From positions 2,356,001 to 2,420,000 of the forward strand of contig NZ_CP116805.1 in NCBI RefSeq assembly GCF_028463845.1: a stretch of 64,000 nucleotides of DNA. Direction: 5' to 3'. This document shows positions 13,272 to 29,841 of the stretch, in pieces; within the stretch, counting starts at the first letter, position 1, and each line of letters begins with the position of its first letter. Source of the stretch: Gimibacter soli (GTDB lineage: Bacteria; Pseudomonadota; Alphaproteobacteria; Sphingomonadales; Kordiimonadaceae). Below the pieces are notes generated by a model, which was not told the DNA's origin, made no database searches, and saw nothing but the letters and a program-made list of their open reading frames with translations. Position numbers and translations under genes: made by a program.

Positions 13272-14258
13272 TCAAACCGCAGTGCCGGCGAGGCAAGCCG
13301 CGAGAAGTTTGGGGTCGATATTGCCGCCCGAAAGCACGATCACGCTGGTCTGCCCCTTCGCTTCAACACGGCCTTCAAGGAGTGCCGCGAGCGAGACAAC
13401 ACCCCCCGGTTCGGTCGTCAGTTTCAGGATTTCAGAGGCATAGGCCACGGCATCAGCTGCCTCGCGGTCCGATACGGTCAGGCCCTTCACGCCAAAGGCT
13501 TGAAGCACGGCAAAGGTCAGCGGCCCAGGCGAATCCGAGAGAAGCGCGTCGCAGATCGACTTTACCGTGATATCCGCCTGCTGGCGCGTACCGCTTTCCA
13601 GCGAACGCTTGGTGTCGTCATAGGTCGCGGGTTCCACCACATACCGGGCAGCACCCGGAAATTCGCGCCCGAGCACGGTATAAAGCCCCGAAGCGAGGCC
13701 ACCGCCACCGCAGCCGGTGAGGATTTGGTCGGGGGTTACGCCAATCGCCTTCAGGTCTTCTGCGATCTCAAGCCCGATGGTGCCCTGCCCGGCCATGATA
13801 TAAGGGTCGTTGAAGGATGGCACGACGATGGCGCCTTCCTTTTCGCTGATCTCGGCAGCAATCGCTTCGCGGCTTTCGCTGTAGCGGTCAAACAGCCTGA
13901 CAATCGCGCCATATCCTTTGGTATTGCGAACCTTGATCTCGGGGGCGTCCTTCGGCATCACGATGGTCGCCTTCACGCCCAGCATGCGGGCAGCGAGCGC
14001 CACGCCCTGCGCGTGGTTGCCGCTCGAGAAAGCCACAACGCCGCGCTTCTTTTCCTCGTCCGTCAGCTGCGAGATGCGGTTATAGGCTCCCCGGAACTTG
14101 AAGGCACCGGCGTGCTGCAGGCATTCGGGCTTGATGAAGACGCGCCCGCCAAGGCGTTCATTGAGGGCAAGGTTTTCGATAAGCGGGGTGCGAACGGCAA
14201 TCCCCTTGATGCGGCCGGCAGCGGCAACAATATCCTCGTAGCTGATCGCGAGTGTCAT
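13272..14258 (-). CDS. PLP-dependent threonine/serine dehydratase
   Basis: 328 aa, the length of catabolic (short) threonine dehydratases with no C-terminal ACT domain. The PLP lysine lies in FKFRGA (about residue 54), followed by S-S-G-N-H-A-Q-G, the phosphate loop G-C-G-G-G-G-L-A-S-G near 185 and the C-terminal S-G-G-N-I-D. Such enzymes deaminate threonine or serine to 2-oxo acids in the cytoplasm; serine racemase or hydroxyaspartate dehydratase activity is possible in the same family. It starts 4 bp after the small membrane protein gene and is downstream of an omega-aminotransferase, so it is likely co-transcribed with the amine-catabolic run. Confidence 0.9.
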   Translation of the reverse strand: MTLAISYEDIVAAAGRIKGIAVRTPLIENLALNERLGGRVFIKPECLQHAGAFKFRGAYNRISQLTDEEKKRGVVAFSSGNHAQGVALAARMLGVKATIVMPKDAPEIKVRNTKGYGAIVRLFDRYSESREAIAAEISEKEGAIVVPSFNDPYIMAGQGTIGLEIAEDLKAIGVTPDQILTGCGGGGLASGLYTVLGREFPGAARYVVEPATYDDTKRSLESGTRQQADITVKSICDALLSDSPGPLTFAVLQAFGVKGLTVSDREAADAVAYASEILKLTTEPGGVVSLAALLEGRVEAKGQTSVIVLSGGNIDPKLLAACLAGTAV

Positions 14259-14262
14259 GGTC

Positions 14263-14508
14263 TTATTTATCCTTTTTTCGGCGCGGGCGATGCTTGTGCC
14301 ACCAGCGCAACAGCCTGACTTCCATGCGCCGGCGGAACCGGCGCACGGCGGGATAATCCACGGAAAGGATCACAAGGCCAAGCGGTATCATCCAGAATCC
14401 GAGAACCGGCAGAAATCCGAGGATGCCGCCAATGACCAGAAGGACGCCTACAATGAGGCGTCCCAGCTGGTTGTTCGGAATTGTCTTCTTGATCTTCTGG
14501 CGGATCAT
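14263..14508 (-). CDS. Small two-helix membrane protein (PGPGW-like)
   Basis: 81 aa. A central hydrophobic region (about 15-50) with G-G-I-L-G-F-L-P-V-L-G-F-W-M-I-P-L-G-L resembles the putative transmembrane PGPGW family: two short helices around a Pro/Gly turn. The C-terminus is very basic (R-R-M-E-V-R, K-H-R-P-R-R-K-K-D-K), suggesting a cytoplasmic tail. It is packed between the aminotransferase (15 bp) and the dehydratase (4 bp). No function is known. Confidence 0.75.
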   Translation of the reverse strand: MIRQKIKKTIPNNQLGRLIVGVLLVIGGILGFLPVLGFWMIPLGLVILSVDYPAVRRFRRRMEVRLLRWWHKHRPRRKKDK

Positions 14509-14523
14509 GTCCCGCCCCTTCGG

Positions 14524-15852
14524 TCAGTCGACCGCTGCAAGCGTTTCGGCGAACAGGTTGAAGATACGGTCGATATGCGCCTTGTCGGAAACAAGCGGCG
14601 GAGCGATGGCAATATGATCGCCCGACAGCCGTACTTTCAGGCCCATTTCAAACGCCTTCAGGAACACATCGTTCGCCCGTGCACCCAAGACGCCGTCGCG
14701 CTGCGCCACGGTGAAGGCACTCATGAAGCCGAGGTTGCGGATATCGGTCACATGCTTTGCCGTTTTAAGGCCATGGGCCGCCGCGCCGAAATGCGGCTCA
14801 AGGGTCTGGACATTCTCGTAAACGCCCTCTTCCTTGAAGACCTTCTGGGTGGCAAGCGCCGCGGCCACGGCCAGCGGGTGCGCCGAATAGGTATAGCCGT
14901 GGAACAGCTCAACCCCGCCCTTCGTTTCATCCATGAAGGTATCGTAGATGCGCTTCTGCACGATCACAGCGCCCATCGGCACGGTGCCGTTGTTGATGGC
15001 TTTGGCGGTCGTGATGATATCGGGTTCCACCTTGAAGCGCTCGGCAGCACTGGCATAACCCAGACGCCCGAAGGCCGTGATCACCTCGTCGAAAATCAGG
15101 AGGATGCCGTGCTTTGCGGTAATTTCGCGCAGGCGCTCCAGATAGCCGATGGGCGGGATGAACACACCAGCCGAACCCACAACAGGCTCGACGATCACCG
15201 CAGCGATGGTGGAGGCATCATGCAGCTTCACCAGATTTTCAAGCTCGTCGGCGTAAGCGGCACCCGTTTCCGGCTGGCCGTTCGTGAAGGCCATGGTCGC
15301 CGGGTCATAGGGGAAAGGCATGTGGTCCACACCCGGCAGCAGCGAGCCGAAGAATTTGCGGTTATTGACCATGCCGCCAACCGAGATGCCGCCAAAGCCC
15401 ACGCCGTGATAACCGTTGAAGCGACCGATCAGGCGGGTCCGCGATGCGTCTCCCTTGAGGCGGTGGTAGGCGATGGCGATCTTGAGCGCGGTATCCACCG
15501 ATTCCGAGCCCGAGTTCGTGAAGAAGACATGGTCAAGCGAGCCGGGCATCACGTCCGCCACCACATTGGCGAGCTCGAACGCCGGGCGGTGGCCGAAGCC
15601 GAAGGCGGTGGAATAGTCCAGCTTGCCGGCCTGTTCGCGGATCGCTTCGGTCACTTTCGGATGGCCGTGCCCCAGCGCTGAACACCAGAGGCCTGAGGAG
15701 CCGTCAATCACCTGACGGCCATCGTCCGTGGTGAAATAGAGGCCCGCAGCGCTTTCCAGGAGGCGCGGTTTGGCCTTGAAGGCCTTGTTGGGCGTGAACG
15801 GCATCCAGTAGGCCTGCAGTTCATCGTTCCGAAGCGGATTGGAGGAGGTCAT
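14524..15852 (-). CDS. Class III omega-aminotransferase (beta-alanine/putrescine:pyruvate type)
   Basis: 442 aa. Class III aminotransferase landmarks: YWMPFTPN near 15, F-T-N-S-G-S-E-S-V-D-T-A near 115, GRFNGYHG near 148, D-E-V-I-T-A-F-G-R-L-G near 255 and the PLP lysine in T-A-K-A-I-N-N-G near 288. The N-terminal part closely resembles omega-amino acid:pyruvate aminotransferases, which use beta-alanine, putrescine or similar amines with pyruvate. Its position, downstream of the PuuA/PuuB-like genes and TonB receptor on the same strand, makes an amine-degradation role likely. Exact substrate cannot be read from sequence. Confidence 0.9.
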   Translation of the reverse strand: MTSSNPLRNDELQAYWMPFTPNKAFKAKPRLLESAAGLYFTTDDGRQVIDGSSGLWCSALGHGHPKVTEAIREQAGKLDYSTAFGFGHRPAFELANVVADVMPGSLDHVFFTNSGSESVDTALKIAIAYHRLKGDASRTRLIGRFNGYHGVGFGGISVGGMVNNRKFFGSLLPGVDHMPFPYDPATMAFTNGQPETGAAYADELENLVKLHDASTIAAVIVEPVVGSAGVFIPPIGYLERLREITAKHGILLIFDEVITAFGRLGYASAAERFKVEPDIITTAKAINNGTVPMGAVIVQKRIYDTFMDETKGGVELFHGYTYSAHPLAVAAALATQKVFKEEGVYENVQTLEPHFGAAAHGLKTAKHVTDIRNLGFMSAFTVAQRDGVLGARANDVFLKAFEMGLKVRLSGDHIAIAPPLVSDKAHIDRIFNLFAETLAAVD

Positions 15853-15921
15853 GAAACACCTGATGCTTTGGCGAAAGCGGCTCTCCGGCCGTCGCCTCTG
15901 GACTTGATCTTTTGTGGGATC

Positions 15922-15941
15922 GGGGCGGCCGCAGCCGCCCC
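15922..15941 (-). terminator. GC-rich hairpin after the TonB receptor gene
   Basis: GGGGCGGC (15922-15929), 4-base loop, GCCGCCCC (15934-15941): a perfect 8-bp stem 16 bp past the receptor stop. No T-run follows on the minus strand, so it may cause partial termination or stabilise the receptor mRNA end rather than stop transcription into the aminotransferase gene. Confidence 0.4.
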
Positions 15942-15956
15942 GCCCGAAGCGCTAGA

Positions 15957-18320
15957 TTATTCTTCGCCGAAGTTGACGGTCAGCTTCACACCCACGGTGC
16001 GCGGACGGCTGATGCCGAAACCGTGCGCCGGGAACAGCCCGTCAGGCGAGCCTTCGCTGGTGCCATCGAAATACTTGGCGTTGAACACGTTTTCCATATA
16101 GGCCGTGACCGACCAGCCTTCGTTGCTGGTCCAGCCGAGGCGGGCTGCAACATCGGTCCACCCGCCATTAACACCCGACGGGGTGTTGTCGAGGCCGCCG
16201 TAGGTCTTGCTTTGCGTACGGAAGTCAACCGACCCTGTGATCTCGCCCGCGTCACCGATCGGCTGGTGATAGGCAAGCACGCCGGCAAGCGTCCATTTGG
16301 GCGAACCCGGCAGGCGCGAGCCATCAGGCCCGATCACCACTTCGGTGCCATCCGGATAGGTGTAAACCGCACCGGTCACTTCGTTGGTGTTGTAGGAGCC
16401 CGAAACGAACATATCGAGGTTTTCGCTCAGGATCGCCTGCACGGTGGCTTCCGCGCCCCATGCCTTCACCTTGCCCACGTTCACAATCTTGGTGCCTGCA
16501 TCGAAGAAGTTCAGCTGCAGGTCCGTGTAGCGATAGTGATAGACGTTACCGTTGAGGCGGACGCGGCTGTCAAACAGGTCGCCCTTGAAGCCAACCTCAT
16601 AGGAGGTCACCTGCTCGGGGTCGAACGAGTTCGGCGTAGCGCCCGGGGTTGCAACGAGATCGTCGTCAACACCATCCGGGAACTCGTCGGTCGGGTTCAG
16701 GTTCACAGCGAACGAGCCGAAGCCGCCCGATTTGTAGCCTTTGGTGAGGCTGGCATAGATCATCCAGTCCTCATTCGGGCGGTAACGGGCGATGAAGCGC
16801 GGCGTGAACTTGTCCCACGACTTGCTGTCATAGACGAAACCGTCGGTCGTCAGGCCGAACATCCAGTAGGGGCCGAGGCCGGTATCGACCGGCAGCACGT
16901 TGATGCCGAAGTTCTTCTTGTCCTTGGTGTAGCGGATGCCGGCACCGATATCGAACTTCTCGCTGAACTCGTAGGTCGCCTCGAAATAGGCACCCCAGCC
17001 CGAATATTCACCGTCGACCATGTTGGCTTCAACCTGGCCTTCGGGGTTATATTCATAGTCCTCGCCATAGTAATATTGCGACATTTCCTGACAGGTCATG
17101 CCGTAATAGACGCCGCAAAGGACATCTTCACCAAGGGCGTTGCGGAACAGAACGTCGAGCTTTTCCTTATAGTAGGAAACGCCGCCGTACCACGACAGCG
17201 GGCCTTCGGTCTGGCCTACAAGGCGCAGTTCCTGCTCGAAATAGTCGCCCGACTGGGTCTGGGCATAGTCGTTGTAGCGGAAGGGCGCGCCGTCGAAATC
17301 TTCGGCGTAATCATAGTCATGATCCTTGTAGCCGGTGATCGACTGCAGGCTTGCGAAGCCAAGGTCGAAATTGATGTGCGCCTCGAGCGAGAGAACATCG
17401 CCGATATCGTAGTTGCCAAGGCCTTCGTCGGCATCCACATCACGGATATCACCGCGCGGGGTGACCGGGCCTTCGAGCACTTCTTCAAGCGAGTCCAGGA
17501 TACCGAAGGCATTGTTGGCGCGGTAAACCGAGCCGCTTTGCTCGCGGTCTTCATACTCGAGGATGAAGGTGCTGTCCCAGCTTTCGCCGCGCACGCCAAC
17601 GCTCGCCCGGAAGGCATCCTTGTTGTGCCATACCTGCTTGCGGGCTTCGGGATCGAACTGGTTGTCGACATAGCCGTCTTCTTCGCTGTGGTAAGCGGCA
17701 AGACGCACAGCAACCTTGTCGTTGATGCCATAGTTGAAGGCAGCTTCGCCTTCAAGAATGCCACGCTGGCCAACACCCATTTCCATATAGCCGGACGTCT
17801 GGTCGTACTTCGGCTTGGTGGTATAGAGGCTGACAGCGCCCGAGATTGCGTTACGGCCGAACAGGAAGCCCTGCGGCCCGCGCAGGACCTCGGCACGTTC
17901 CATATCGAACATCGAGGTCACAACAACGCCGTTACGGCCCTGATAGAGGCCGTTCTTGAAGAAGCCGACCGACGGATCGCCGCCGACGCCGAAGTCGTTC
18001 GTCGAGATACCGCGGATGTTGATATAGTCGATGAAGCTGTCTTTGCTGTCGCCCGCGAAGCCCGGGGTGAATTTCACCAGGTCTTTCACGTCGTCAAGAT
18101 TGACGCGCTTCTGGAAAGCCGCATCGAAGGCCGCAACGGCGAGCGGCACATCCTGCACCGATTCAGCACGTTTCTGGGCTTCAACGAGGATTTCCTCGAT
18201 CACCATCCCGTTGTTGTCGCCGGATTCCTGGGCAAACGCCTGCCCTGCCCCGGCAAGCAGCGCCGCGAACGACGCACCGGTCGTCAGCCAAGGCCGCTTT
18301 TTCTTTGTCGTGACTGCCAT
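15957..18320 (-). CDS. TonB-dependent outer-membrane receptor
   Basis: 787 aa. A signal peptide (about 1-31, ending G-Q-A-F-A-Q) leads to a plug domain with V-E-E-I-L-V-E-A-Q-K-R (TonB-box region), VKFTPGF, INIRGIST and VLRGPQGFLFGRNAISGAV. A 22-strand-type barrel of about 600 residues follows, with many aromatic strand ends. These receptors import siderophores, vitamins or larger nutrients across the outer membrane using TonB energy. The ATG at 18320 has AGGGAG 7 bp upstream. It lies between a TPR-sulfotransferase gene and an omega-aminotransferase in the amine region, so amine-containing substrates are possible. The C-terminus ends NFGEE instead of the usual terminal aromatic residue. Confidence 0.93.
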   Translation of the reverse strand: MAVTTKKKRPWLTTGASFAALLAGAGQAFAQESGDNNGMVIEEILVEAQKRAESVQDVPLAVAAFDAAFQKRVNLDDVKDLVKFTPGFAGDSKDSFIDYINIRGISTNDFGVGGDPSVGFFKNGLYQGRNGVVVTSMFDMERAEVLRGPQGFLFGRNAISGAVSLYTTKPKYDQTSGYMEMGVGQRGILEGEAAFNYGINDKVAVRLAAYHSEEDGYVDNQFDPEARKQVWHNKDAFRASVGVRGESWDSTFILEYEDREQSGSVYRANNAFGILDSLEEVLEGPVTPRGDIRDVDADEGLGNYDIGDVLSLEAHINFDLGFASLQSITGYKDHDYDYAEDFDGAPFRYNDYAQTQSGDYFEQELRLVGQTEGPLSWYGGVSYYKEKLDVLFRNALGEDVLCGVYYGMTCQEMSQYYYGEDYEYNPEGQVEANMVDGEYSGWGAYFEATYEFSEKFDIGAGIRYTKDKKNFGINVLPVDTGLGPYWMFGLTTDGFVYDSKSWDKFTPRFIARYRPNEDWMIYASLTKGYKSGGFGSFAVNLNPTDEFPDGVDDDLVATPGATPNSFDPEQVTSYEVGFKGDLFDSRVRLNGNVYHYRYTDLQLNFFDAGTKIVNVGKVKAWGAEATVQAILSENLDMFVSGSYNTNEVTGAVYTYPDGTEVVIGPDGSRLPGSPKWTLAGVLAYHQPIGDAGEITGSVDFRTQSKTYGGLDNTPSGVNGGWTDVAARLGWTSNEGWSVTAYMENVFNAKYFDGTSEGSPDGLFPAHGFGISRPRTVGVKLTVNFGEE

Positions 18321-18431
18321 TCTGTTTCTCCCTGACAATTCGATTTGCACATTTTTCCAGACTCAAACGCAATCGTGGTGGCCGTTCAAGGCACAAATGC
18401 CATGCGGACACCGTTTTTGGGCAAGGGGTTG

Positions 18432-20048
18432 TCAGACGGCAACACCTTGGGCCAGCAGTTCATTCCGCATCGCGGAAAGCTTGTCTTCATAGCGGCGCCA
18501 GCGACCGACCGAGCGCGTGTGGGCGGGCTCTCTCACCTGCGCCGCGCTCGCCGTCGTCACGGCGCCGTCGTTGTTGAAAAAGTCGAGGCAGGCGTCATCC
18601 CACGCAAGGCCGAGGGCCGCGATCAGGCGGCGGGTTTCGGCCTCCGTATCCGTCACCAGTTTTTCGTATTCGATCTCGATCAGGCGATCCCCGAGAAGGG
18701 CGCGCCAGTCCGTCATCAGTGACAGGTAGCGGGCATGGTGCCGCGCCATTTCCTGCTGATTGTAGGAATGCGGATAGGCTTCGGCGAAAAGCTGTTTGTA
18801 GCTTGCGAAGCAGCTATCCATCGGGTCGCGCCGCACATGCACGATCTTGGCGTTCGGCAAGGCGGCGGCGATAAGCGGCGCATACAGATAATTCACCGGC
18901 ATCTTGTCGATGAAATGCGACTTTGAGCCACGCACCGGCTTCGTTGCCTCGATATAGGCATGCCCGACAAGGCTAGCATCCATCGCGGCTATCGCTTCCA
19001 CCACCTCAGCGCTCATCGGCAACGGGGTTGAAAGGCCCGACAGGCGCTTCATGGACATGGCAAACTGTTGCAACTCACCCGCCGCCTCGACCTCGCCGTG
19101 TGCGGCAATGATCCGTTCCACCAGCGTGGTGCCGGTGCGCGGCTGGCCGACGATGAAGATCGGCGCATCTGCCGGTGTCTTGCCCTTCTGTGCCGCGAGC
19201 CATTCAGTGGTGAATGCAGATTTCAGCGCCGCAAACAGCTGTTCCTCGACGGCCTCGTCATAGTCCGTTGCTGCGCGTTTGGCAGCGGCACCGGCCTCGA
19301 AGGCTTCGAACGCGGCGTCCCAGTCCTCAAGGTCTTCCAGTTCCTTGCCGGTGGCATACAGGAGGAAGCTCTGGGACAGCGGCGTATAGCCGCGCGAGCC
19401 CAGATATTCAGCCATTTCCTCGATATGCTTGCGGTCCTTGGCCTTCGACATGCCAGCGATCATCCAGTGGGCGCGAGGCATATCGGGATGGGCCTTCAGG
19501 ACGATATCGAGCGCCGCCCGTGCCTCGTCAAACCGGCCGAGGAACAGGAGCGCGTTGGCACGGTTGAAGGCAAACTGCGGATGGCCGGGCTCTTTCGCTG
19601 TCGCCTTGTCAAACCAGCGCAGCGCTTCAGCCTGATCGCCAAGCGCGCTGAAGACCCCGCCGATCGTATCCATCACGATAGGCATTGCGGGCGACAACGC
19701 CACAGCGCGTTCCAGCGCGGTTTCGGCATTTCCGTATTGGCCGAGCATGGCATAGAGCCGGGCAAGCTGCGCCCAGCCCGCCGCGTCGCCCTCATCAAGA
19801 CCGACAACGGATTTGAAAGCCCTGACGGCGGTTGCCGTATCGCGGCTTTCGGATGCGATAAGGCCGACGAGGAAATGTGCCTCTTTCACGCGCGGGGCAT
19901 GGGTCAGCACTTCACGCGCGGCGGCGCCGGCCTCTCCAAGCTTGCGCGATGCGAAGGCCTGATAACCGCGCTTCAACAGAGCGGCCAGCCGGGCCTTGTC
20001 GGGCTCGCCTGTCCTTACGATTGTCTCTGTCGCACCTGCGTTCATCAT
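18432..20048 (-). CDS. TPR-repeat sulfotransferase family protein
   Basis: 538 aa. The N-terminal half (about 20-280) holds several tetratricopeptide-like helical repeats (A-A-G-W-A-Q-L-A-R-L-Y, G-N-A-E-T-A-L-E-R-A-V-A-L-S-P, and similar). The C-terminal half is a sulfotransferase domain: PAPS 5'-phosphosulfate loop G-Q-P-R-T-G-T-T (301-308), IDKMPVNY near 380, and the 3'-phosphate segment H-V-R-R-D-P-M-D-S-C-F-A-S near 400. The acceptor is unknown. The gene lies 19 bp after the PuuB-like start side and 111 bp before the TonB receptor, so it may be part of the same transcription unit. Confidence 0.88.
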   Translation of the reverse strand: MMNAGATETIVRTGEPDKARLAALLKRGYQAFASRKLGEAGAAAREVLTHAPRVKEAHFLVGLIASESRDTATAVRAFKSVVGLDEGDAAGWAQLARLYAMLGQYGNAETALERAVALSPAMPIVMDTIGGVFSALGDQAEALRWFDKATAKEPGHPQFAFNRANALLFLGRFDEARAALDIVLKAHPDMPRAHWMIAGMSKAKDRKHIEEMAEYLGSRGYTPLSQSFLLYATGKELEDLEDWDAAFEAFEAGAAAKRAATDYDEAVEEQLFAALKSAFTTEWLAAQKGKTPADAPIFIVGQPRTGTTLVERIIAAHGEVEAAGELQQFAMSMKRLSGLSTPLPMSAEVVEAIAAMDASLVGHAYIEATKPVRGSKSHFIDKMPVNYLYAPLIAAALPNAKIVHVRRDPMDSCFASYKQLFAEAYPHSYNQQEMARHHARYLSLMTDWRALLGDRLIEIEYEKLVTDTEAETRRLIAALGLAWDDACLDFFNNDGAVTTASAAQVREPAHTRSVGRWRRYEDKLSAMRNELLAQGVAV

Positions 20049-20067
20049 CCCCCCGGATATTCCCGCC

Positions 20068-21378: not shown

Positions 21379-21396
21379 ATAAGTAACGGTCTTTCC

Positions 21397-22767
21397 TCAG
21401 ACAATCCTCAGATAGTGGCGATAGTCAGCCGAGCTGACGGCCCGGTGGAAGGCCAGTTCCTCGGACCCGCGCACCTGCACATAAAGATCGACGAAATCCT
21501 CGCCGAGATATTCTTTCATCACGTCCGCCTCCATCAGGCGGTCAAGCGCGATGCGCCAGCGGTTCGGCAGGACGTTCTCGAACACAACAGCGTCGAATTC
21601 GCCGCGCTTCGGGCCGGGGTCCAGCTGGTGTTCGAGCCCGAAGTGAGCGCCCGCGAGGATCGCCGCCAGCATCAGGTAGGGGCACGCATCGGCGCCGCAC
21701 ACACGGTGCTCGAAGCGACGATCCTTGCCAGAGGCCATCGGCAGGCGCACCGAGAGAAGCCGGTTGTTCTCGCCCCAGTTCGGCACCACGGGCGCGAAGA
21801 AATCGGGGTCGAAACGGCGGTAGCTGTTGGCGTTCGGCGCGAACAGCGCCGTCGCCTCAGGCATGGTTTCCAGAAGCCCGCCAACGGCATGCTTCAGCCG
21901 GTCTTCGCCGCCCTTGCCTTCGAAGATATTGTTGCCGTCCTTGTCGAGGATCGAGACGTGGGCATGCATGCCGTTCCCGGCTTCGTCCACCAGCGGCTTG
22001 GCCATGAAGCTCGCCAGCAGACCATATTTGAAGGCAACACCCTTGATGATGCGCTTCAGCATCATGGCGTAATCGCACATGCGCATCGGATCATCGATAT
22101 GCAGGAGATTGGCTTCAAACTGGCTGGAGCCATATTCGGTGACGATCCCGGTGATGGGCAGACCCTGCTCCTTGCAGACATCCTCCATCTCGTTGAGGAT
22201 TTCCTCATAATCATAGAGGACGTCCATATTATAGATGTTGCCGCCCTCGGCCTTCGGGAAGTCGTTCAGCGGCGACATCGGCACCGGCGGCACCGTGCTT
22301 GTGGCCTCGAAAAGATAGAATTCAAACTCCAGCGCCACCACAGGCTTCAGGCCGGCAGCGCGGTAGCGGGCAAGCACCCGGTTCAGCACCGAGCGCGGAT
22401 CCATGAAGAAGGGGCCGCTTTCCGAATCCATCATCGTCAGCATGATCTGGGCGGTCGGGTGTTTGGTCCAGGGAACCCGCACCAGCGAACCCGGCACCGG
22501 CATGCACACGCGGTCGGGGTCGGTGCCATACTCGTCGCTCACCGTATCGGCGGCGGCACCGTTGAAGGTGAGGAACGGCGTGGTGATCGGGAAAAGCGTG
22601 CCTTCCTTCGGCAGCTTCTTCAGCGCCTCGATTGGCAGCTGCTTGCCGCGGAAAAGGCCGTTCATATCCGGCAGCAACACCTCGATCACTTCCGTGTCGG
22701 GGTGGCGGGCGAGGAAGGCCTCGACCTCTTGCTCCAATGTAAGCTTCGCATCCTTCGGCATCGTCAT
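21397..22767 (-). CDS. puuA: Glutamine synthetase-like gamma-glutamylamine ligase (copy 1)
   Basis: 456 aa of glutamine synthetase fold. Metal and substrate motifs are visible: V-A-L-E-F-E-F-Y-L-F near 143, G-N-G-M-H-A-H-V-S near 263, N-S-Y-R-R-F near 312 and R-R-F-E-H-R-V-C-G-A-D near 350. No adenylylation-site Tyr loop of GlnA is seen, and the divergence favours gamma-glutamylputrescine synthetase or a related ligase that adds glutamate to an amine with ATP. It is the first gene of the minus-strand amine run, facing the divergent control region with two TGTGATCACA palindromes. Confidence 0.87.
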   Translation of the reverse strand: MTMPKDAKLTLEQEVEAFLARHPDTEVIEVLLPDMNGLFRGKQLPIEALKKLPKEGTLFPITTPFLTFNGAAADTVSDEYGTDPDRVCMPVPGSLVRVPWTKHPTAQIMLTMMDSESGPFFMDPRSVLNRVLARYRAAGLKPVVALEFEFYLFEATSTVPPVPMSPLNDFPKAEGGNIYNMDVLYDYEEILNEMEDVCKEQGLPITGIVTEYGSSQFEANLLHIDDPMRMCDYAMMLKRIIKGVAFKYGLLASFMAKPLVDEAGNGMHAHVSILDKDGNNIFEGKGGEDRLKHAVGGLLETMPEATALFAPNANSYRRFDPDFFAPVVPNWGENNRLLSVRLPMASGKDRRFEHRVCGADACPYLMLAAILAGAHFGLEHQLDPGPKRGEFDAVVFENVLPNRWRIALDRLMEADVMKEYLGEDFVDLYVQVRGSEELAFHRAVSSADYRHYLRIV

Positions 22768-22891
22768 ATACTCTACGTTTGGCGCACAGGTGGGCTGGCA
22801 CGAACGCCGGCCGGCATGCCAAGGGGCGGCAAGGACCGGCTGCCCGGAAAACGACCCTGAGATGGGTCACAATCGGTGCGGAATGGTGCAA

Positions 22892-22901
22892 TGTGATCAC
22901 A
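22892..22901. promoter_or_regulatory. Palindrome TGTGATCACA, copy A (candidate operator)
   Basis: Perfect 10-bp palindrome about 125 bp upstream of the minus-strand puuA. The outer GT...AC arrangement suits the dyad sites used by GntR-family regulators such as the one encoded at 27628; the link is inference. It is not a CRP site, because TGTGA and TCACA abut without the 6-bp spacer. Confidence 0.5.
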
Positions 22902-23036
22902 AGAAAGAGACTAAGTCAATGCCATCAGGATGCAGATTCGGCCAATAGCCGAGCTTCAGCAAGCATTGCGCGGGCTCCAATGCTCCCCGCAGTGCTTTCG
23001 TTGCGCATCCGATCCGTCTTGACGGAAACCATAATT

Positions 23037-23046
23037 TGTGATCACA
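23037..23046. promoter_or_regulatory. Palindrome TGTGATCACA, copy B (candidate operator)
   Basis: Second perfect copy, flanked AATT...TTTT, 71 bp upstream of the plus-strand puuB start and 145 bp from copy A. Repetition of the same palindrome in one divergent promoter region supports operator function. Confidence 0.55.
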
Positions 23047-23116
23047 TTTTGTCGAGGCGCGACTCTGAGTCGCTTCCGCCAGTCAATGCTACCCCAAGCT
23101 ACCTGGAATATAAATC

Positions 23117-24406
23117 ATGACCAGAAAACCCATCGAGCATACGGGCTCCTACTATGCTGCCACGGCGAACCCCTCGCCCGTGCGCCCCTCCCTGCAAGGC
23201 GACATCACGGCTGACGTGTGCGTGGTCGGCGCCGGCTATTCAGGCATCGTCAGCGCCCTGACGCTTGCCGAGCTTGGCTACAAGGTCGTTGTCCTTGAGA
23301 ATGCCAGGGTCGGTTGGGGCGCATCGGGGCGCAACGGCGGCCAGATCATCAACGGCTACAGCCGCGAAATCGAATATATCGAGGACCGCGTTGCCCCCTC
23401 ACAAGCCCGCATGATGGCCGACCTCGCGCTCGAGGGCGGCAATGTGATCCGCGAGAATGTGGCCAAATACAATATCCACTGCGACCTGAAGCATGGCTCA
23501 GTACTTGCCGCCTATACGCAGAAACAGATCCGCCATCTGGATGAAACCATCAAGGCATGGGCCGAGCGCGGTCGTGGCGGGCTTGAGCTGCTGGACAAGG
23601 CCGGCATCCGCGAGCAGGTCGGCACCGATATCTATGCCGGCGGCTGGATCGACCATAACGGCGGCCATATCCATCCGCTGAATCTCTGCCTCGGCGAGGC
23701 GGCGGCGGCTGAAAGCCTTGGCACCGTTATCTACGAGCAAACCAATGTGACCCGCGTTGACCACAATGCGGAAAAGCCTGTCGTTTACTGTGAAAACGGC
23801 AGCGTGACCGCCAATTACGTGGTCCTCGCCGGTAACGCCTATCTTGGCAAGACGGTGCCGGAGCTGGCTCCGAAGGTGCTGCCGGCCTCCACCCAGATCA
23901 TCGTCACCGAACCGCTTGGCGACCTTGCCGATGAATTGCTGCCCAATGGTTACTGCGTGGAGGACTGCAATTATGTCCTCGATTACTTCCGCCTGACGGC
24001 TGACAAACGGCTGCTCTTCGGTGGCGGCACGGTTTATGGCGGGCAGGATATTGCCGACGTCGAAAAGGCCCTTCGTCCCAACATGGAGAAAATCTTCCCC
24101 ATGCTGAAAGACAAGAAGGTGGACTTCGGCTGGCAGGGCAATATCGCCCTCACCTGGATCCGCCTGCCCCATGTCGGCCGGCTCGGCAAATCCACTTTCT
24201 TCACCCAAGGCTATTCCGGCCACGGGGTGACAAGTTCACACATGATGGGCCGTGTTCTCGGACACGCCATTCATGGCCAGGCAACCGCCTTCGATGCCTT
24301 TGCGGGCATTCCGGCGCGCAGTTTCCCCGGTGGCCAGCTCCTCAGCGTTCCGCTGTCGACCATCGGCTGCTGGTACTATTCGATGCGAGACAAGCTAGGA
24401 ATCTGA
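23117..24406 (+). CDS. puuB: FAD-dependent amine oxidase, gamma-glutamylputrescine oxidase-like (copy 2)
   Basis: 429 aa. FAD-binding loop V-G-A-G-Y-S-G at about 37-43, W-G-A-S-G-R-N-G-G-Q near 71, a substrate/flavin region L-D-Y-F-R-L-T-A-D-K-R-L-L-F-G-G near 290 and G-Y-S-G-H-G-V near 370. It belongs to the same PuuB branch as the gene at 20068. It opens the plus-strand run puuB-membrane protein-puuD-puuA-regulator. The expected reaction is oxidation of a gamma-glutamylated diamine to the aldehyde; a PuuC-type dehydrogenase for the next step is missing from the window. Confidence 0.87.
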   Translation: MTRKPIEHTGSYYAATANPSPVRPSLQGDITADVCVVGAGYSGIVSALTLAELGYKVVVLENARVGWGASGRNGGQIINGYSREIEYIEDRVAPSQARMMADLALEGGNVIRENVAKYNIHCDLKHGSVLAAYTQKQIRHLDETIKAWAERGRGGLELLDKAGIREQVGTDIYAGGWIDHNGGHIHPLNLCLGEAAAAESLGTVIYEQTNVTRVDHNAEKPVVYCENGSVTANYVVLAGNAYLGKTVPELAPKVLPASTQIIVTEPLGDLADELLPNGYCVEDCNYVLDYFRLTADKRLLFGGGTVYGGQDIADVEKALRPNMEKIFPMLKDKKVDFGWQGNIALTWIRLPHVGRLGKSTFFTQGYSGHGVTSSHMMGRVLGHAIHGQATAFDAFAGIPARSFPGGQLLSVPLSTIGCWYYSMRDKLGI

Positions 24407-24407
24407 C

Positions 24408-24449
24408 GCCCGGATGGCATAGACTTCTGATCCGGGCAATTCAGCCCGG
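24408..24449 (+). promoter_or_regulatory. Mutually exclusive hairpins between puuB copy 2 and the membrane protein gene
   Basis: GCCCGGA (24408-24414) can pair with TCCGGGC (24431-24437), while CCGGGC (24432-24437) can instead pair with GCCCGG (24444-24449). The shared middle segment makes the two stems exclusive. No T-run follows, so this looks like an RNA processing or translation-tuning element rather than a terminator. Confidence 0.4.
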
Positions 24450-24467
24450 TTCCAATGGGATAATGGG

Positions 24468-25349
24468 ATGGGGCACAAGAACACACTGTGGGGCGTGAAG
24501 AAGGAACGGCTGTTCCAGGGTTTCAAATATCTGGTTTACAGCTTCATTCTGGTGAACTTCTTCTACTTCCTGCGGGAAGACTATCTGGCCTCGACCCACA
24601 CCTACCGGGACGGCTTCAACTGGACACAGCTGGCTGAAGCCTTCTCGCAGTCGACCGACACCCTCGCCTGGTGGATCCTCCTGATGCTTTTCGAGCTTCA
24701 GACATGGACCCTGAATGACGAGAAGCTGGACCGGATAAAGGGCATGATCAGCGCTGTGGGCGCTGTTGCCTATGGCTTCATCATCATCGCGTTCCTTGGA
24801 TACGTGGAACGCATGCTGATGACCTACGGTTTCTCGGCCTCCAGCTTCACCGATGCCTGCTCGGCTGTCGGTCAGGTCCTGTCGGTCGCGATGGATATGG
24901 ATGACTATATCGACCTGACCGCCGCCAACTGCGCCTCGTTCGAAGGAACGCGCTGGTTTGTGAACGAAACGGTTGGCATGATGGCAAACGATGAGGTGCT
25001 GACCCGCATGCACCGGCTGTCGGCTACGGATGTCCTGAATGCAGGCGCGTGGCTTCTCATCGTTGTGGTGCTGGAAGTGGATGTCTGGCTGACGCTGAAA
25101 CGCGAACTGACAGACTTTTTCTACCGCATCAATACCGCCGTGAAGATGGTCCTTTACGGCACCCTCATCGTCTGCTGCCTTTACTGGGCCGGCATGGGGG
25201 ATCTGGTCGGCTTCTGGGATGCTTTCGTCTGGATTGTCGCCTTCTTCCTGATCGAACTGAACCTGTTCAAATGGCAGGAAGAGGAAGAGGCAGACATGGA
25301 ACGTGAAGCCATGGAAGACGCGATCGCCAAGACCGGTGACAGTTTCTAG
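24468..25349 (+). CDS. Unknown multi-pass membrane protein in the amine operon
   Basis: 293 aa. About six hydrophobic segments: near 21-35 (YLVYSFILVNFFYFL), 67-80 (WWILLMLFEL), 95-115 (AVGAVAYGFIIIAFLGYV), 190-208 (AWLLIVVVLEVDVWL), 223-242 and 246-265. A non-membrane stretch at about 120-180 contains two to three Cys (D-A-C-S-A-V and A-A-N-C-A-S-F). The C-terminal tail is very acidic (EEEEADMEREAMEDA). I do not recognise the family. It sits 61 bp after puuB and 18 bp before puuD, so it is almost certainly expressed with them; a transport, sensing or redox role in amine catabolism is only a guess. Confidence 0.75.
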   Translation: MGHKNTLWGVKKERLFQGFKYLVYSFILVNFFYFLREDYLASTHTYRDGFNWTQLAEAFSQSTDTLAWWILLMLFELQTWTLNDEKLDRIKGMISAVGAVAYGFIIIAFLGYVERMLMTYGFSASSFTDACSAVGQVLSVAMDMDDYIDLTAANCASFEGTRWFVNETVGMMANDEVLTRMHRLSATDVLNAGAWLLIVVVLEVDVWLTLKRELTDFFYRINTAVKMVLYGTLIVCCLYWAGMGDLVGFWDAFVWIVAFFLIELNLFKWQEEEEADMEREAMEDAIAKTGDSF

Positions 25350-25367
25350 AAGCACTCGAGGACGAAA

Positions 25368-26129
25368 ATGACATCGAAACCCGTCGTCGCCATCGTATGC
25401 GATACCTCGAAATCGGGGCCGCATATCTATCATTCGGTCGGCGACAAATATATCCAGGCGCTGCGCCGCTGCGCTGACGTCACGCCTGTACTGATCCCGT
25501 CGCTTGATGTGCCGGTGCCAGCGGAGGAGATTTTCTCCTTCGCAGACGGCCTGCTGGCCACTGGTGGCTACAGCAATATCCAGCGCCACTATTATGGCGA
25601 TGCACCAGCCCCCGAGGGCGAGAATGAAGACCCGCACCGCGACAAGAACACCCTGCCCCTGATCCGGCAGGCGATTGCCATGGGCATCCCGATGCTCGGC
25701 ATCTGCCGCGGCTTGCAGGAACTGAATGTCACGATGGGCGGCACGCTGTACCCGCGCCTCCATGAAATCGACGGTCGCTTCGACCACCGCGAGGACAAGG
25801 ACGCCCCGGTCGATGTGCAATATGGCCCCGCCCACAGCGTGAGCGTACGCGAAGGCGGCCTGTTGCATACCATCACCGGCGCTGACGAATTCATGGTCAA
25901 TACGGTGCATGGCCAGGGCATCCGTGATCTGGCGCCCGGCCTTGTTGTCGAGGCACTTGCCGATGATGACACGATCGAAGCCGTTTCCATCGAGAATGCC
26001 AAGGCATTTGCGCTGGCAGTCCAGTGGCATCCTGAGTGGAAAGCCTGGGAAAACGACCAGTCGACAAGAATTTTCCGCGCGTTCGGCGATGCCGTTCGCG
26101 CCCATAGCAAGTCCCGAGTGGGCAAATAA
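25368..26129 (+). CDS. puuD: Gamma-glutamyl-GABA hydrolase-like class I glutamine amidotransferase
   Basis: 253 aa of the peptidase C26 family. The nucleophile is C113 in L-G-I-C-R-G-L-Q-E-L-N, with H221 and E223 in Q-W-H-P-E-W completing the triad. PuuD hydrolyses gamma-glutamyl-GABA to glutamate and GABA at the end of the glutamylated putrescine pathway in the cytoplasm. A GAGGA ribosome-binding site precedes the ATG. It lies between the unknown membrane protein and puuA copy 2. Confidence 0.92.
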   Translation: MTSKPVVAIVCDTSKSGPHIYHSVGDKYIQALRRCADVTPVLIPSLDVPVPAEEIFSFADGLLATGGYSNIQRHYYGDAPAPEGENEDPHRDKNTLPLIRQAIAMGIPMLGICRGLQELNVTMGGTLYPRLHEIDGRFDHREDKDAPVDVQYGPAHSVSVREGGLLHTITGADEFMVNTVHGQGIRDLAPGLVVEALADDDTIEAVSIENAKAFALAVQWHPEWKAWENDQSTRIFRAFGDAVRAHSKSRVGK

Positions 26130-26148
26130 CCTGAAGAGAAAGGACAGG

Positions 26149-26163
26149 GCCCGGCAACCGGGC
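26149..26163 (+). promoter_or_regulatory. Intercistronic hairpin before puuA copy 2
   Basis: GCCCGG (26149-26154), loop CAA, CCGGGC (26158-26163), ending 16 bp before the puuA ATG. It uses the same stem sequence as the hairpin pair at 24432-24449 in this operon, so the two may share an RNA-level role; chance in GC-rich DNA is possible. Confidence 0.35.
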
Positions 26164-26179
26164 ACTGCAAAGGTGTTTC

Positions 26180-27541
26180 ATGTACGACCCGAAGCGTATT
26201 GAAGAGCTGGACAACTGGCTCAAGAGCGAGGGCATCGACGATATCGAGTGCATGGTGGCGGATCTCGCCGGCATTGCACGGGGCAAGGCCATGCCGCGCA
26301 CGAAGTTCATTGAAGGACTGAAAAAGCGAGACATGAAGATGCCGGAAACGCTCTTCGGCCTCACCATTCACGGCGACTATGCCCTCAATGATTATCTCAG
26401 GGAAACCGAGCAGGATGTGATCCTGCTGCCGGACCTTGAAACCATCTGCAAGACGCCTTGGCAGTCGGAACCGACCGCCGGGGTGATCTGCGATTGTGTC
26501 TATGAAAACGGTCAGGCCGTTGAGTTCTCGCCGCGCCAGATCCTGCGCCGCGTGCTGGATCTCTACCGCAACGAAGGCTGGCAGCCGATTGTGGCGCCGG
26601 AGTTCGAGTTTTACCTGATCGACCGGCAGGAAAATGTGGAATCGAACCCGATCCCGCCGCGGGGCCGTTCGGGCCAGCGCGACACGGGCTCGTCGCCTTT
26701 CTCCATCGACAGCCTCGATGAATTCCCGGCCTTCTTTGACGATATCTACGATGCCTGCGAAGCGCAGCGCGTGGAGATCGATACCCTGATCCATGAGGCC
26801 GGCCCGGCCCAGTATGAATTCAACGTGATCCACGGCGATCCGCTGAACGTAGCCGACCAGTCGTTCCTCTTTAAACGGATCGGGCGTCAGGTTGCCATTC
26901 GCCACAATATGTTCTGCACCTTCATGGCGCGCCCCTATCCCGACACGTTCGGTAGCGCCATGCATATCCACCAGTCGGTGCAGGATATCGAAACAGGGCT
27001 CAATATCTTCGCCAGTGCCGACGATACCGACAGCGAACTGTTCCACGCGCATATCGCGGGAATGCAGAAATATCTGCCTGCCGCCATGCCCTTCATCGCG
27101 CCCTATGTGAACAGCTACCGCCGCTTCGGCACCGGTCTTTCGGCACCGACGAACACGCATTGGAGCCGTGAGAACCGCTCGGTCGGCCTGCGCGTGCCCT
27201 CAGGCCCGCGTGAAGCCCGCCGGGTGGAGAACCGCATTGCAGGCTCCGATGTGAACCCCTATCTCGCCATCGCCGCCTCGCTCGCTTGCGGCTACCTTGG
27301 CATGAAGGAAGGCCTGTCGCCCTCGCCGGAGTTCAAAGGCTCGGCTTACGAAGCCCGCGGTCGTGCATTACCGGAACATTATCTTGAAGGCCTGCATAAC
27401 CTTCGTGATTGCAAGCCGCTCGCCAAGGTGCTGGGTGAAGCCTTCGTGAATACCTATATTCAGGCGAAGGAAATGGAATACGAAAGCTTCGGCACTGTGC
27501 TTTCCCCGTGGGAAAACAAGTATCTGCTGCTTTCGGTATGA
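26180..27541 (+). CDS. puuA: Glutamine synthetase-like gamma-glutamylamine ligase (copy 2)
   Basis: 453 aa of glutamine synthetase fold. Motifs: V-A-P-E-F-E-F-Y-L-I-D near 138, F-G-S-A-M-H-I-H-Q-S near 255, N-S-Y-R-R-F near 312 and R-R-V-E-N-R-I-A-G-S-D near 350. The N-terminus (DDIECMVADLAGIARGKAM) is characteristic of PuuA-type proteins. It would ligate glutamate to putrescine or a related amine using ATP. AAGG precedes the ATG. Downstream by 86 bp is the GntR/FCD regulator. It differs considerably from copy 1 at 21397, so the two ligases may serve different amines. Confidence 0.9.
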   Translation: MYDPKRIEELDNWLKSEGIDDIECMVADLAGIARGKAMPRTKFIEGLKKRDMKMPETLFGLTIHGDYALNDYLRETEQDVILLPDLETICKTPWQSEPTAGVICDCVYENGQAVEFSPRQILRRVLDLYRNEGWQPIVAPEFEFYLIDRQENVESNPIPPRGRSGQRDTGSSPFSIDSLDEFPAFFDDIYDACEAQRVEIDTLIHEAGPAQYEFNVIHGDPLNVADQSFLFKRIGRQVAIRHNMFCTFMARPYPDTFGSAMHIHQSVQDIETGLNIFASADDTDSELFHAHIAGMQKYLPAAMPFIAPYVNSYRRFGTGLSAPTNTHWSRENRSVGLRVPSGPREARRVENRIAGSDVNPYLAIAASLACGYLGMKEGLSPSPEFKGSAYEARGRALPEHYLEGLHNLRDCKPLAKVLGEAFVNTYIQAKEMEYESFGTVLSPWENKYLLLSV

Positions 27542-27627
27542 GGTGCGTGGAGCAGGCAAGTGCTTGCGCCACATCACAAAATACCCCACCCTGTGCGAGA
27601 CAGGACAAGCTTTGACCGGCGTGGAGC

Positions 27628-28389
27628 ATGAATGACGTGACCGAAAAGGCCACACTGCGGTTCGATCAACTGACCCGTGAAGACGGGGAAACCGCCCAGG
27701 AGTGGGTGTACCGGGCACTCCGTTTTGCCGTGATGGCGGGTCAGGTGTGGCCTGGCCTCGCCCTGACGATCCGGGGCGTGGCCACACTTCTGGGTGTCAG
27801 CCCCATGCCCGTGCGCGAAGCGCTCAGGCGGCTGACGTCCGAAGGCGCGCTGGAACTGAAATCCAACCGCCGGATCGAAGTGCCAACCATGACACCGGCA
27901 CGGCTCGCCGAGCTTCTGGAACTGAGGATCGTTCTTGAGACCCACGCCGCCGTCCGCGCTCTTCCTTATGTGGATGAAGCCCGCCTTGCCGAGCTCAAGC
28001 GGCTGGACCATGAGCAGGATCTGGCATTCGAGCATTATGACGCCGAAGCCATCATCCTTGGCAACCTGCGTTTCCACCGCATGCTTTATACTGCGCACCC
28101 CCACCCGGTGACGATGCCCATGATCGAGCGCGTTTGGCTGCAGATGGGCCCGTTGCACCGGTTGGCGCTCGCACATCTGGAGCGCACCTATGTCGTCGAC
28201 AGGCATGTCGAGATCATGCAGGCCATCGAAGAACGCAATCCCTTCGGGCTCAAATTCGCGCTCGAGGCGGACATCCGCGAAGGTGCGGGCTATGTGACGC
28301 AGACCGAGCTTCTGGAACAGTATGCACGCGGCGAAGCCCCGCTCAACCTGCCGCAGCAGGATTTCATCCGCACCCTTGGCCGGCACTGA
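27628..28389 (+). CDS. GntR family transcriptional regulator, FCD (FadR) subfamily
   Basis: 253 aa. An N-terminal winged helix (about 25-90) contains TIRGVATLLGVSPMPVREALRRL, the diagnostic GntR recognition helix. A helical FCD domain follows with E-L-R-I-V-L-E-T-H-A-A, FHRMLYTA and the conserved metal/ligand His positions in HPHPV. FCD regulators usually sense organic acids or amino-acid derivatives and repress nearby catabolic genes. As last gene of the plus-strand amine operon it is the obvious candidate to bind the TGTGATCACA palindromes at 22892 and 23037. A GGAG ribosome-binding site precedes the ATG. Confidence 0.92.
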   Translation: MNDVTEKATLRFDQLTREDGETAQEWVYRALRFAVMAGQVWPGLALTIRGVATLLGVSPMPVREALRRLTSEGALELKSNRRIEVPTMTPARLAELLELRIVLETHAAVRALPYVDEARLAELKRLDHEQDLAFEHYDAEAIILGNLRFHRMLYTAHPHPVTMPMIERVWLQMGPLHRLALAHLERTYVVDRHVEIMQAIEERNPFGLKFALEADIREGAGYVTQTELLEQYARGEAPLNLPQQDFIRTLGRH

Positions 28390-28450: not shown

Positions 28451-28499
28451 TATGATTGTGTGAAGATTTTTCCAACGCTTCATGGTTGCAGGGGGTCCG

Positions 28500-29663: not shown

Positions 29664-29739
29664 TGGTGATCCCTACGGGACTCGAACCCGTGTTTTCGCC
29701 GTGAAAGGGCGACGTCCTAGACCGCTAGACGAAGGGACC
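29664..29739 (-). tRNA. tRNA-Glu (UUC), copy 2 of a tandem pair
   Basis: 76 nt including an encoded CCA (29664-29666). The acceptor pairs GGTCCCT with AGGGATC (one G-U pair), the anticodon arm reads CGCCCTTTCACGGCG with anticodon TTC, and the T-loop is GGGTTCGAGTCCC. The sequence matches bacterial tRNA-Glu throughout. Identical to the copy 26 bp upstream. Confidence 0.97.
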
Positions 29740-29765
29740 GTCTATATTTCGCGCGCATCTGCAAG

Positions 29766-29841
29766 TGGTGATCCCTACGGGACTCGAACCCGTGTTTTCG
29801 CCGTGAAAGGGCGACGTCCTAGACCGCTAGACGAAGGGACC
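29766..29841 (-). tRNA. tRNA-Glu (UUC), copy 1 of a tandem pair
   Basis: 76 nt with encoded CCA, identical in all positions to the copy at 29664-29739. Anticodon TTC. It lies just downstream of a good sigma70 promoter, so both copies are probably made from one transcript. Confidence 0.97.

Follow-up and report, generated by a model that had tools for sequence, protein, structure and literature searches.

A putative GntR/FCD-controlled regulon for polyamine uptake and gamma-glutamylation-type breakdown in Gimibacter soli

What is the function of two back-to-back gene sets that each carry a PuuA-like ligase and a PuuB-like oxidase, and do they form one unit? The question is raised by a block in the window analysed here, the 64-kb stretch comprising bases 2356001-2420000 of the single-contig 3.59-Mb genome of Gimibacter soli. 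Open reading frames, their order and their strands define two divergent arms separated by 349 bp. In order of transcription, the minus arm encodes PuuA1, PuuB1, a tetratricopeptide repeat (TPR)-sulfotransferase, a TonB receptor, an AptA-type aminotransferase and a dehydratase, and the plus arm encodes PuuB2, a six-helix membrane protein, PuuD, PuuA2 and a GntR/FCD regulator. Gaps within the arms are 18-104 bp, with the exception of 265 bp upstream of the dehydratase, which may have its own promoter. The block is best explained, with a probability of about 0.62, as the core of a GntR/FCD-controlled regulon for polyamine uptake and gamma-glutamylation-type breakdown. Novelty lies in the outer- and inner-membrane equipment and not in the pathway, which is already known.

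Gene content, order and strands, checked against open reading frames and Pfam and NCBIfam matches, agree with an earlier note on this DNA that had also called for an examination of synteny. The two-arm block is found again in Kordiimonadales relatives, with named carriers including Kordiimonas marina, K. gwangyangensis, K. sediminis and K. aquimaris, and its recurrence indicates an arrangement beyond chance. Relatives were collected through the six-helix protein, for which 368 of 410 pattern matches in the genome collection were confirmed, mostly labelled Alpha- and Gammaproteobacteria. The best 80 of these membrane-protein stretches form the locus set (1.35 Mb), a choice biased towards the window's own sequence. 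The dehydratase is present in 10 of these 80 loci and stays under the cut-offs of all 25 NCBIfam matches listed for it.

PuuA1, PuuA2 and a third ligase elsewhere in the genome (PuuA3, at 3.23 Mb) keep E131, E212, E220, H269, R321, R339 and R359 in an alignment with E. coli GlnA and PuuA, residues that we take to form the glutamate, ATP and metal site of glutamine synthetase. The ammonium-site residues are lost in all three, with D50 replaced by P, Y179 gapped and E327 replaced by F (in PuuA1), S or D; E. coli PuuA has P, a gap and Y at these positions, and both GlnA sequences keep D, Y and E. A fourth glutamine-synthetase-like row was dropped from the alignment, the frame taken for it being an aldehyde dehydrogenase. 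Loss of these ammonium-site residues is described for PauA7 and GlnA4, ligases of amines larger than ammonium, in the portion of PMC6529630 that was available. PuuA1 and PuuA2 thus look like gamma-glutamyl-amine ligases and not glutamine synthetases, as the earlier note had proposed. A quick tree places PuuA1 with E. coli PuuA (support 0.92) and PuuA2 with PuuA3 (0.98), the latter two being 42% identical, and five proteins in the genome have a glutamine-synthetase catalytic domain. Directly downstream of PuuA3 lies a gene for a PEP-CTERM protein (L124 7274-8083). A further glutamine-synthetase-like gene (632128-633081, in stretch L125, genome 624000-643000) stands directly before two aldehyde dehydrogenases, amid genes that by eye resemble P450, ferredoxin and ferredoxin reductase genes, in a stretch devoid of TGTGATCACA, and may represent a separate amine pathway.

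The evidence that the arms share a switch comes from the palindrome TGTGATCACA, two perfect copies of which lie in the 349-bp inter-arm region (Table 1), with copy 2 inside the spacer of a minus-strand sequence that weakly resembles a promoter. The 64-kb window holds no further copy, even with one mismatch allowed; two matches per 64 kb are not rare by themselves, as many being found in 34 of 100 shuffles. The whole genome has five perfect sites (reversed control 0), each placed between -100 and 260 bp relative to the start of an amine-set gene. One of the three distant sites is at the beginning of the solitary PuuA3 gene (14 bp into its longest frame, the true start being probably later), another lies 77 bp before a second TPR-sulfotransferase gene that precedes a TonB receptor gene, and the last lies 22 bp before the gene for an Amidohydro_3 protein whose N-terminus looks lipoprotein-like by eye. 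The related loci hold 24 sites in 13 of the 80, all 24 of them intergenic (reversed control 0). A literature search on TGTGATCACA returned nothing relevant by title, the match in PMC12724174 being a cloning primer, and none was found linking gamma-glutamylputrescine with GntR.

The sites also follow the regulator across genomes. A GntR relative (E 1e-30) occurs in 9 of the 29 genomes of the family, and site context was read in 11 of the 29, with G011, G043 and G079, which have a GntR match, left out. A site was called linked when it lay -100 to 260 bp from the start of a gene for a ligase, PuuB, an aldehyde dehydrogenase, a sulfotransferase, an amidohydrolase or a flavin amine-oxidase-type enzyme. 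Linked sites number 19 of 30 in the six genomes with a GntR orthologue, this one included, versus 0 of 17 in the five without (Fisher p 7.8e-6); G064 enters this count with 5 of 7 sites, two palindromes at its main locus being left out. Both flanks are A or T at 23 of 30 sites in the former group versus 3 of 17 in the latter, and 13 of 17 sites in genomes without GntR fall inside genes, versus 6 of 25 in GntR-carrying genomes other than this one (calls made without a gene list). The palindrome is present in 7 of the 14 two-arm Kordiimonadales loci that cover the inter-arm region. It stands between the arms in five of five loci with GntR (L036, L037, L038, L041 and L042) and in one of six without (L048 has it; L044, L045, L047, L051 and L067 do not), a split with an exact probability, calculated by hand, of 6/462. 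This comparison comprises 11 loci that extend to the position of the GntR gene and all carry the pathway, with L039, L043 and L054 (contig ends) and L040 (region uncovered) set aside. Since all five genomic sites front the amine set and the sites go with GntR, a single switch is the putative reading: TGTGATCACA is very probably the operator of the regulator encoded at 27628-28389, and joint control of both arms is well supported by these sequence comparisons. The earlier note's proposal of one shared control region is borne out to this extent by the two perfect copies of a rare palindrome that also marks further genes of the set, here and in relatives. In relatives L171, L172, L176, L177, L183 and L184, the palindrome also fronts flavin amine-oxidase-type genes and amidohydrolase homologues; one such flavin type is nearer to the carotene ketolase CrtO, far under the CrtO cut-off, and the next gene in L172 resembles, by eye, a sodium-neurotransmitter-type symporter.

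Several observations weigh against a polyamine regulon under one regulator. On the side of control, the bare 10-mer is present in 28 of the 29 family genomes, 11 of the 30 sites in GntR-carrying genomes are unlinked, G073 has a GntR orthologue and 0 of 2 sites linked, and half of the two-arm loci (7 of 14) have no perfect palindrome. The contrast between genomes with and without GntR is also partly confounded, four of the five without it (G018, G024, G058 and G090) having no membrane-protein match, and these four may lack the pathway altogether. On the side of the enzymes, the block ligases reach 189 and 169 bits against a cut-off of 650 bits for NCBIfam GGputSyn, and PuuD reaches 187 bits against a cut-off of 266, so that "PuuA/D-like" is the safer wording and the sequence takes the ligases no further than gamma-glutamyl-amine ligase. 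The genome has no close PuuC orthologue, and 42 of 79 membrane-protein loci have no PuuA/B/D-type gene or agmatinase within four genes, versus 37 that do (L085, in which the membrane gene was uncalled, being dropped from the 80). Taken from the control side, the points on unlinked and missing sites, together with an inter-arm region of 349 bp that is long enough for two controls, would suit separately regulated arms that are neighbours by chance, with palindromes belonging to another regulator. This is very unlikely, given that all five sites in this genome front the amine set and that sites and GntR co-occur. Overall, the block is real and conserved, and is probably a polyamine catabolic unit under a single regulator.

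The amine that the block serves is judged here from the window and from its relatives. No aldehyde dehydrogenase is found among the block proteins, and none of them matches E. coli PuuC. Elsewhere in the genome, 17 places match aldehyde dehydrogenases, the best being 44% identical to a relative's PuuC; the absence of PuuC noted earlier for the block is upheld, and no close orthologue was found in the genome. None of the 17 passes the NCBIfam PuuC cut-off, which is passed in 0 of 14 control genomes, E. coli included, and the failure here proves nothing alone. The block itself also has no PRK07480-type aminotransferase. In six relatives (L036, L037, L038, L041, L042 and L054), the plus arm has, beyond PuuA2, an enzyme that shares 51-54% identity with E. 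coli PuuC (that of L042 scores 643 bits against the PuuC cut-off of 850), as well as a PRK07480-type aminotransferase (that of L038 was tested) and an NhaC-type antiporter (that of L054 was tested); PRK07480-type aminotransferases adjoin the membrane protein in relatives (three tested). The minus arm of L036-L039, L041 and L054 starts with another aldehyde dehydrogenase. The two of these tested are succinate-semialdehyde dehydrogenases over the subfamily cut-off, one passing the equivalog cut-off of 828 bits (830) and the other missing it (826). Succinate-semialdehyde dehydrogenase catalyses the last step of the putrescine-GABA (gamma-aminobutyrate) route, and a relative of it, 58-61% identical, lies at 3.53 Mb in this genome (10 stretches compared). 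An agmatinase-cluster gene is near the membrane protein in 5 of 79 loci, that of L109, the one tested, being over the curated agmatinase cut-offs. In Emcibacter, locus L086 unites PuuB, GntR, a GATase-cluster gene, PuuA, an agmatinase-cluster gene, an aminotransferase, the membrane protein, an amidohydrolase, a sulfotransferase and a receptor, and carries four palindromes.

The company kept by these relatives bears on the earlier suggestion that the block handles unusual amines rather than plain putrescine, such as an amino alcohol, a monoamine or an amide-bound amine. PuuA1 has Phe at the E327 position, as in the model of the ethanolamine ligase GlnA4 (PMC6529630, in the part available), the TonB receptor, the dehydratase and the amidohydrolase are foreign to the E. 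coli pathway, and the missed putrescine-ligase cut-off and lack of a close PuuC would fit as well. The addition of PuuC, succinate-semialdehyde dehydrogenase, agmatinase and the PRK07480-type aminotransferase in relatives, and the retention of PuuD in the arm, speak for common polyamines, and the suggestion is not upheld; unusual amines are an unlikely substrate, and polyamine breakdown is the economical reading. An extracellular precursor, either larger or in bound form, would be in keeping with the TonB receptor and the exported amidohydrolase. The window aminotransferase carries the NCBIfam name AptA, which, from the names, is presumably that of a studied Caulobacter omega-aminotransferase. 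The Caulobacter enzyme is described, in the portion of PMC3281772 available, as highly active on beta-alanine and beta-aminobutyrate and also active on an aromatic amine. In the block, AptA perhaps handles beta-alanine from the C3 half of spermidine or diaminopropane. A literature search on gamma-glutamylation of polyamines in marine bacteria led to PMC8437039, on SAR11, and to nothing of direct use. Titles returned for polyamine, TonB-dependent and glutamylpolyamine together were off subject, and the literature on Kordiimonas and putrescine gave nothing of use.

The TPR-sulfotransferase and the TonB receptor make up the outer-membrane side of the regulon. The nearest solved relatives of the sulfotransferase domain are the protein-tyrosine sulfotransferases (TPST), a weak kinship (E 1e-7) in which the loop for 3'-phosphoadenosine-5'-phosphosulfate aligns as PRTGTT vs PRSGTT. 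The genome encodes four TPR-sulfotransferases at E 1e-30 (10 of 30 candidates scored), and all four have a TonB receptor on the same strand, 24-114 bp away by open frames. The two genes are side by side in 20 of 21 cases in the locus set, the counted miss being L068, which has both genes and a receptor that falls outside the receptor cluster. In the gammaproteobacterium Dasania, 7 of 10 sulfotransferases adjoin a receptor, with gaps of up to 266 bp; the strands agree in four of these pairs and differ in three. A general pairing of TPR-sulfotransferases with receptors was considered and rejected, a receptor being found within about 1.5 kb at only 2 of 30 class loci, the window's own and one other. 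These are the best locus from each of 30 genomes, 29 of them other genomes; the first receptor detector recovered 26 of 30 known whole receptors, and both detectors were run on cut flanks, where misses are possible. With a receptor at 1 of the 29 other-genome loci, the pairing belongs to some lineages or subfamilies.

The paired receptors are distinguished by their tyrosine content, which was tested over all 55 receptors of the genome after a tyrosine-rich loop had been noticed in the window receptor. The four partners contain 5.96, 5.87, 6.22 and 5.60% Tyr versus a mean of 3.91% in the other 51 (one-sided Mann-Whitney p 6e-4), of which two reach 5.6%. None of nine other residues differs at p 0.05 in two-sided tests (W 0.07), and acid-flanked Tyr (p 0.02) separates the groups less well than plain Tyr content. 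In Dasania, the comparison of 7 partners with 34 others gives p 0.0066, and p 0.046 for same-strand partners only; it covers 41 of 51 receptors, 10 not being fetched or not listed, with frames under 450 residues left out. The notion that the receptors beside sulfotransferases are one clade was discarded, a quick tree needing three changes, of which well-supported branches force two. Three of the four partners fall in one group of 10 receptors, a result equalled in 42 of 500 label shuffles; the best BLAST relative of these three is the non-partner L241, with 3.78% Tyr, and that of the window receptor is the non-partner L274, with 5.84%. The second palindrome-fronted sulfotransferase/receptor pair (L123 3063-7670, genome 2.24 Mb) has 9 Tyr in 25 residues, the densest run in the 55 receptors. 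In the family of the window receptor, a loop with 5-10 Tyr is found in 20 of 20 partners, and of the two non-partners one has 5, in a longer loop, and the other 1; C412 and C420 of this loop are invariant in the alignment of 22 receptors. In the predicted model, loop 407-438 contains two short helices and joins long barrel strands; because short and long turns alternate, we read it as extracellular.

The tyrosine-rich partners suggest sulfation of receptor tyrosines. Aromatic ligand-binding loops together with a small-molecule sulfotransferase would explain the data too, and a target other than the receptor, in the form of an imported small molecule, a surface glycan or a secreted product, is slightly favoured. 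Tyr-rich loops can presumably bind cations unmodified, a receptor is detected at only one of the 29 best class loci of other genomes, and the clustering of three partners in one group of 10 also fits such a target. Direct adjacency in four of four cases in this genome, 7 of 10 in Dasania and 20 of 21 in the locus set, and the Tyr enrichment of partners that do not form one clade, point back to the receptor. Literature returns on tyrosine sulfation of TonB-dependent proteins held nothing on the subject by title, and those on a TonB-dependent receptor with a TPR sulfotransferase were, by title, off subject. Receptor sulfation, if true, would be a new outer-membrane modification in bacteria, as far as this literature search goes.

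On the inner-membrane side, the six-helix protein matches no Pfam family (E 0.01) and no NCBIfam family (E 0.001), in keeping with its earlier description as an unknown membrane protein, and a profile search against PDB sequences gave 0 matches. Its AlphaFold model has a predicted local distance difference test score (pLDDT) of 90 and a predicted template modelling score (pTM) of 0.85, and its long helices are read as six membrane spans, with a small beta domain between helices 3 and 4. Compared with solved structures, the model gave a best Foldseek E of 0.14 and a best VIA Z of 8.2, within helical-bundle noise, and neither a known nor a new fold is claimed. C131 and C155 of the beta domain are invariant in 81 sequences. 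Helices 2, 4 and 6 repeat the motif D/N-x3-W-x7-E-x-E/D/N with identical spacing (D64-W68-E76-E78, N191-W195-E203-D205 and D251-W255-E263-N265); the acids of helix 4 are less constant (E203 63%, D205 78%) than the other repeat residues (96-99%), and helices 1 and 5 share K-x3-Y (K20/Y24 and K226/Y230). In a repeat test over 2465 registers, that of helices 1 and 5 ranks 1st and that of helices 2 and 4 ranks 15th. Helices 2 and 6 (571st) and 4 and 6 (1266th) failed, indicating that the spacing of the motif is exact and the general similarity of the helices is not. Because acidic residues repeat inside the membrane bundle, a cation carrier or channel is a tentative assignment, held at a little under even odds. 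A role as membrane partner of the PuuB oxidases, providing an electron outlet to quinone, or as a sensor is possible but rather doubtful: the gene directly follows PuuB in the window and several other loci and the family also occurs away from amine genes, while the protein has no invariant or near-invariant His for haem and no other inner-membrane carrier is recognised in the block.

The family is found in 40 of 196 sampled genomes of the order, and its general role may be broader than amines. In several Woeseiaceae, genes for formate-tetrahydrofolate ligase and Fic proteins lie next to it, and a constant gene set surrounds it in Microbulbifer; in both groups (among L055-L115) the neighbourhoods are constant and contain no recognised amine genes. 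Three gammaproteobacterial loci (L087, L097 and L101) have two genes of the family in a row behind a PuuA-like gene. For roughly half of the loci sampled, this widespread membrane family, nameless in Pfam and NCBIfam, can be linked to amine metabolism.

In the proposed regulon, the GntR/FCD regulator would bind TGTGATCACA and repress both arms as long as neither an amine nor a gamma-glutamyl intermediate is available. Amine-bearing molecules would cross the outer membrane through the TonB receptor, the amine may be released by the exported amidohydrolase that belongs to the regulon, and the six-helix protein would carry it across the inner membrane or sense it there. PuuA1, PuuA2 and the third ligase would then attach glutamate, PuuB1 and PuuB2 would oxidise the amino end that is still free, the acid would be made by an aldehyde dehydrogenase encoded elsewhere in the genome (a step for which relatives keep PuuC in the plus arm) and PuuD would remove the glutamate. 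AptA would transaminate an omega-amino acid. The sulfotransferase would act on the receptor or its ligand. A more far-reaching version, in which TPR-sulfotransferases sulfate the extracellular tyrosine-rich loops of their partner receptors before export to create an anionic surface for cationic ligands such as polyamines, the six-helix protein, with its repeated acidic motif, founds a new family of amine transporters and the two together form a new and complete uptake route across both membranes, linked to gamma-glutamylation, is decidedly improbable as a whole. The interest of the locus lies in a defined regulon with a putative operator and in the pairing of sulfotransferase and TonB receptor with its tyrosine signature.

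Table 1. Features of the block, in window coordinates (aa, amino acids; PLP, pyridoxal phosphate).
Feature	Position	Strand	Basis or remark
PuuA1, gamma-glutamyl-amine ligase (glutamine-synthetase-like), 456 aa	21397..22767	-	39% to E. coli PuuA; residue pattern
PuuB1, FAD oxidase (DAO), 436 aa	20068..21378	-	Pfam DAO; 42% to E. coli PuuB
TPR-sulfotransferase, 538 aa	18432..20048	-	Pfam Sulfotransfer_3 and TPR
TonB-dependent receptor, 797 aa	15957..18350	-	Plug and barrel; predicted barrel, mean pLDDT 82
Tyr-rich receptor loop, residues 407-438	17037..17132	-	Predicted model and homologue alignment
Omega-aminotransferase, AptA type, 442 aa	14524..15852	-	NCBIfam NF052567, 681 bits (cut-off 500)
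Serine/threonine-dehydratase-like PLP enzyme, 328 aa	13272..14258	-	PALP; least secure arm member (265-bp gap)
Operator-like palindrome TGTGATCACA, copy 1	22892..22901	.	124 bp before PuuA1
Operator-like palindrome TGTGATCACA, copy 2	23037..23046	.	70 bp before PuuB2
PuuB2, FAD oxidase, 429 aa	23117..24406	+	52% to E. coli PuuB
Six-helix membrane protein, 293 aa	24468..25349	+	No Pfam/NCBIfam family; AlphaFold model
PuuD-like gamma-glutamyl hydrolase, 253 aa	25368..26129	+	Peptidase_C26; 38% to E. coli PuuD
PuuA2, gamma-glutamyl-amine ligase, 453 aa	26180..27541	+	34% to E. coli PuuA; residues as in PuuA1
GntR/FCD regulator, 253 aa	27628..28389	+	PF00392 and PF07729 over cut-off

Beyond the regulator gene, a histidine kinase gene (28482-29618) starts 92 bp further on, on the same strand. 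It has weak matches (22-27% identity) in 3 of the 80 related loci and is probably outside the block. Two tandem tRNA-Glu (TTC) genes follow it at 29664-29841.

Among known systems, the block is closest in outline to the Puu pathway of E. coli (puuP-puuA / puuDRCBE), with which it shares PuuA, PuuB and PuuD homologues at 34-52% identity and in which puuA and puuD are likewise divergent. It differs in having two ligases and two oxidases, with a third ligase elsewhere, in the lack of any BLAST match to PuuP, PuuC or PuuR and a match to PuuE of only 26%, and in the presence of a GntR/FCD regulator, a TonB receptor, a sulfotransferase, a dehydratase and a new membrane protein. The regulator has the features of the FCD subfamily of GntR proteins, an N-terminal winged helix-turn-helix (PF00392) and a C-terminal FCD domain (PF07729). 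The Pau system of Pseudomonas and the GlnA2/GlnA3/GlnA4 system of Streptomyces presumably differ from the block in regulator and outer-membrane part. They resemble it in having several ligases of the same superfamily with lost ammonium-site residues, according to the available parts of PMC6529630 and PMC8998196. The window aminotransferase is likened to Caulobacter AptA by its score over the NCBIfam cut-off of that name. For the sulfotransferase, the nearest solved domain is that of TPST, known from animals, at the weak similarity given above, and RaxST is a bacterial protein-tyrosine sulfotransferase according to the part of PMC4216712 available; unlike these, the window enzyme has N-terminal TPR repeats and no signal peptide seen by eye.

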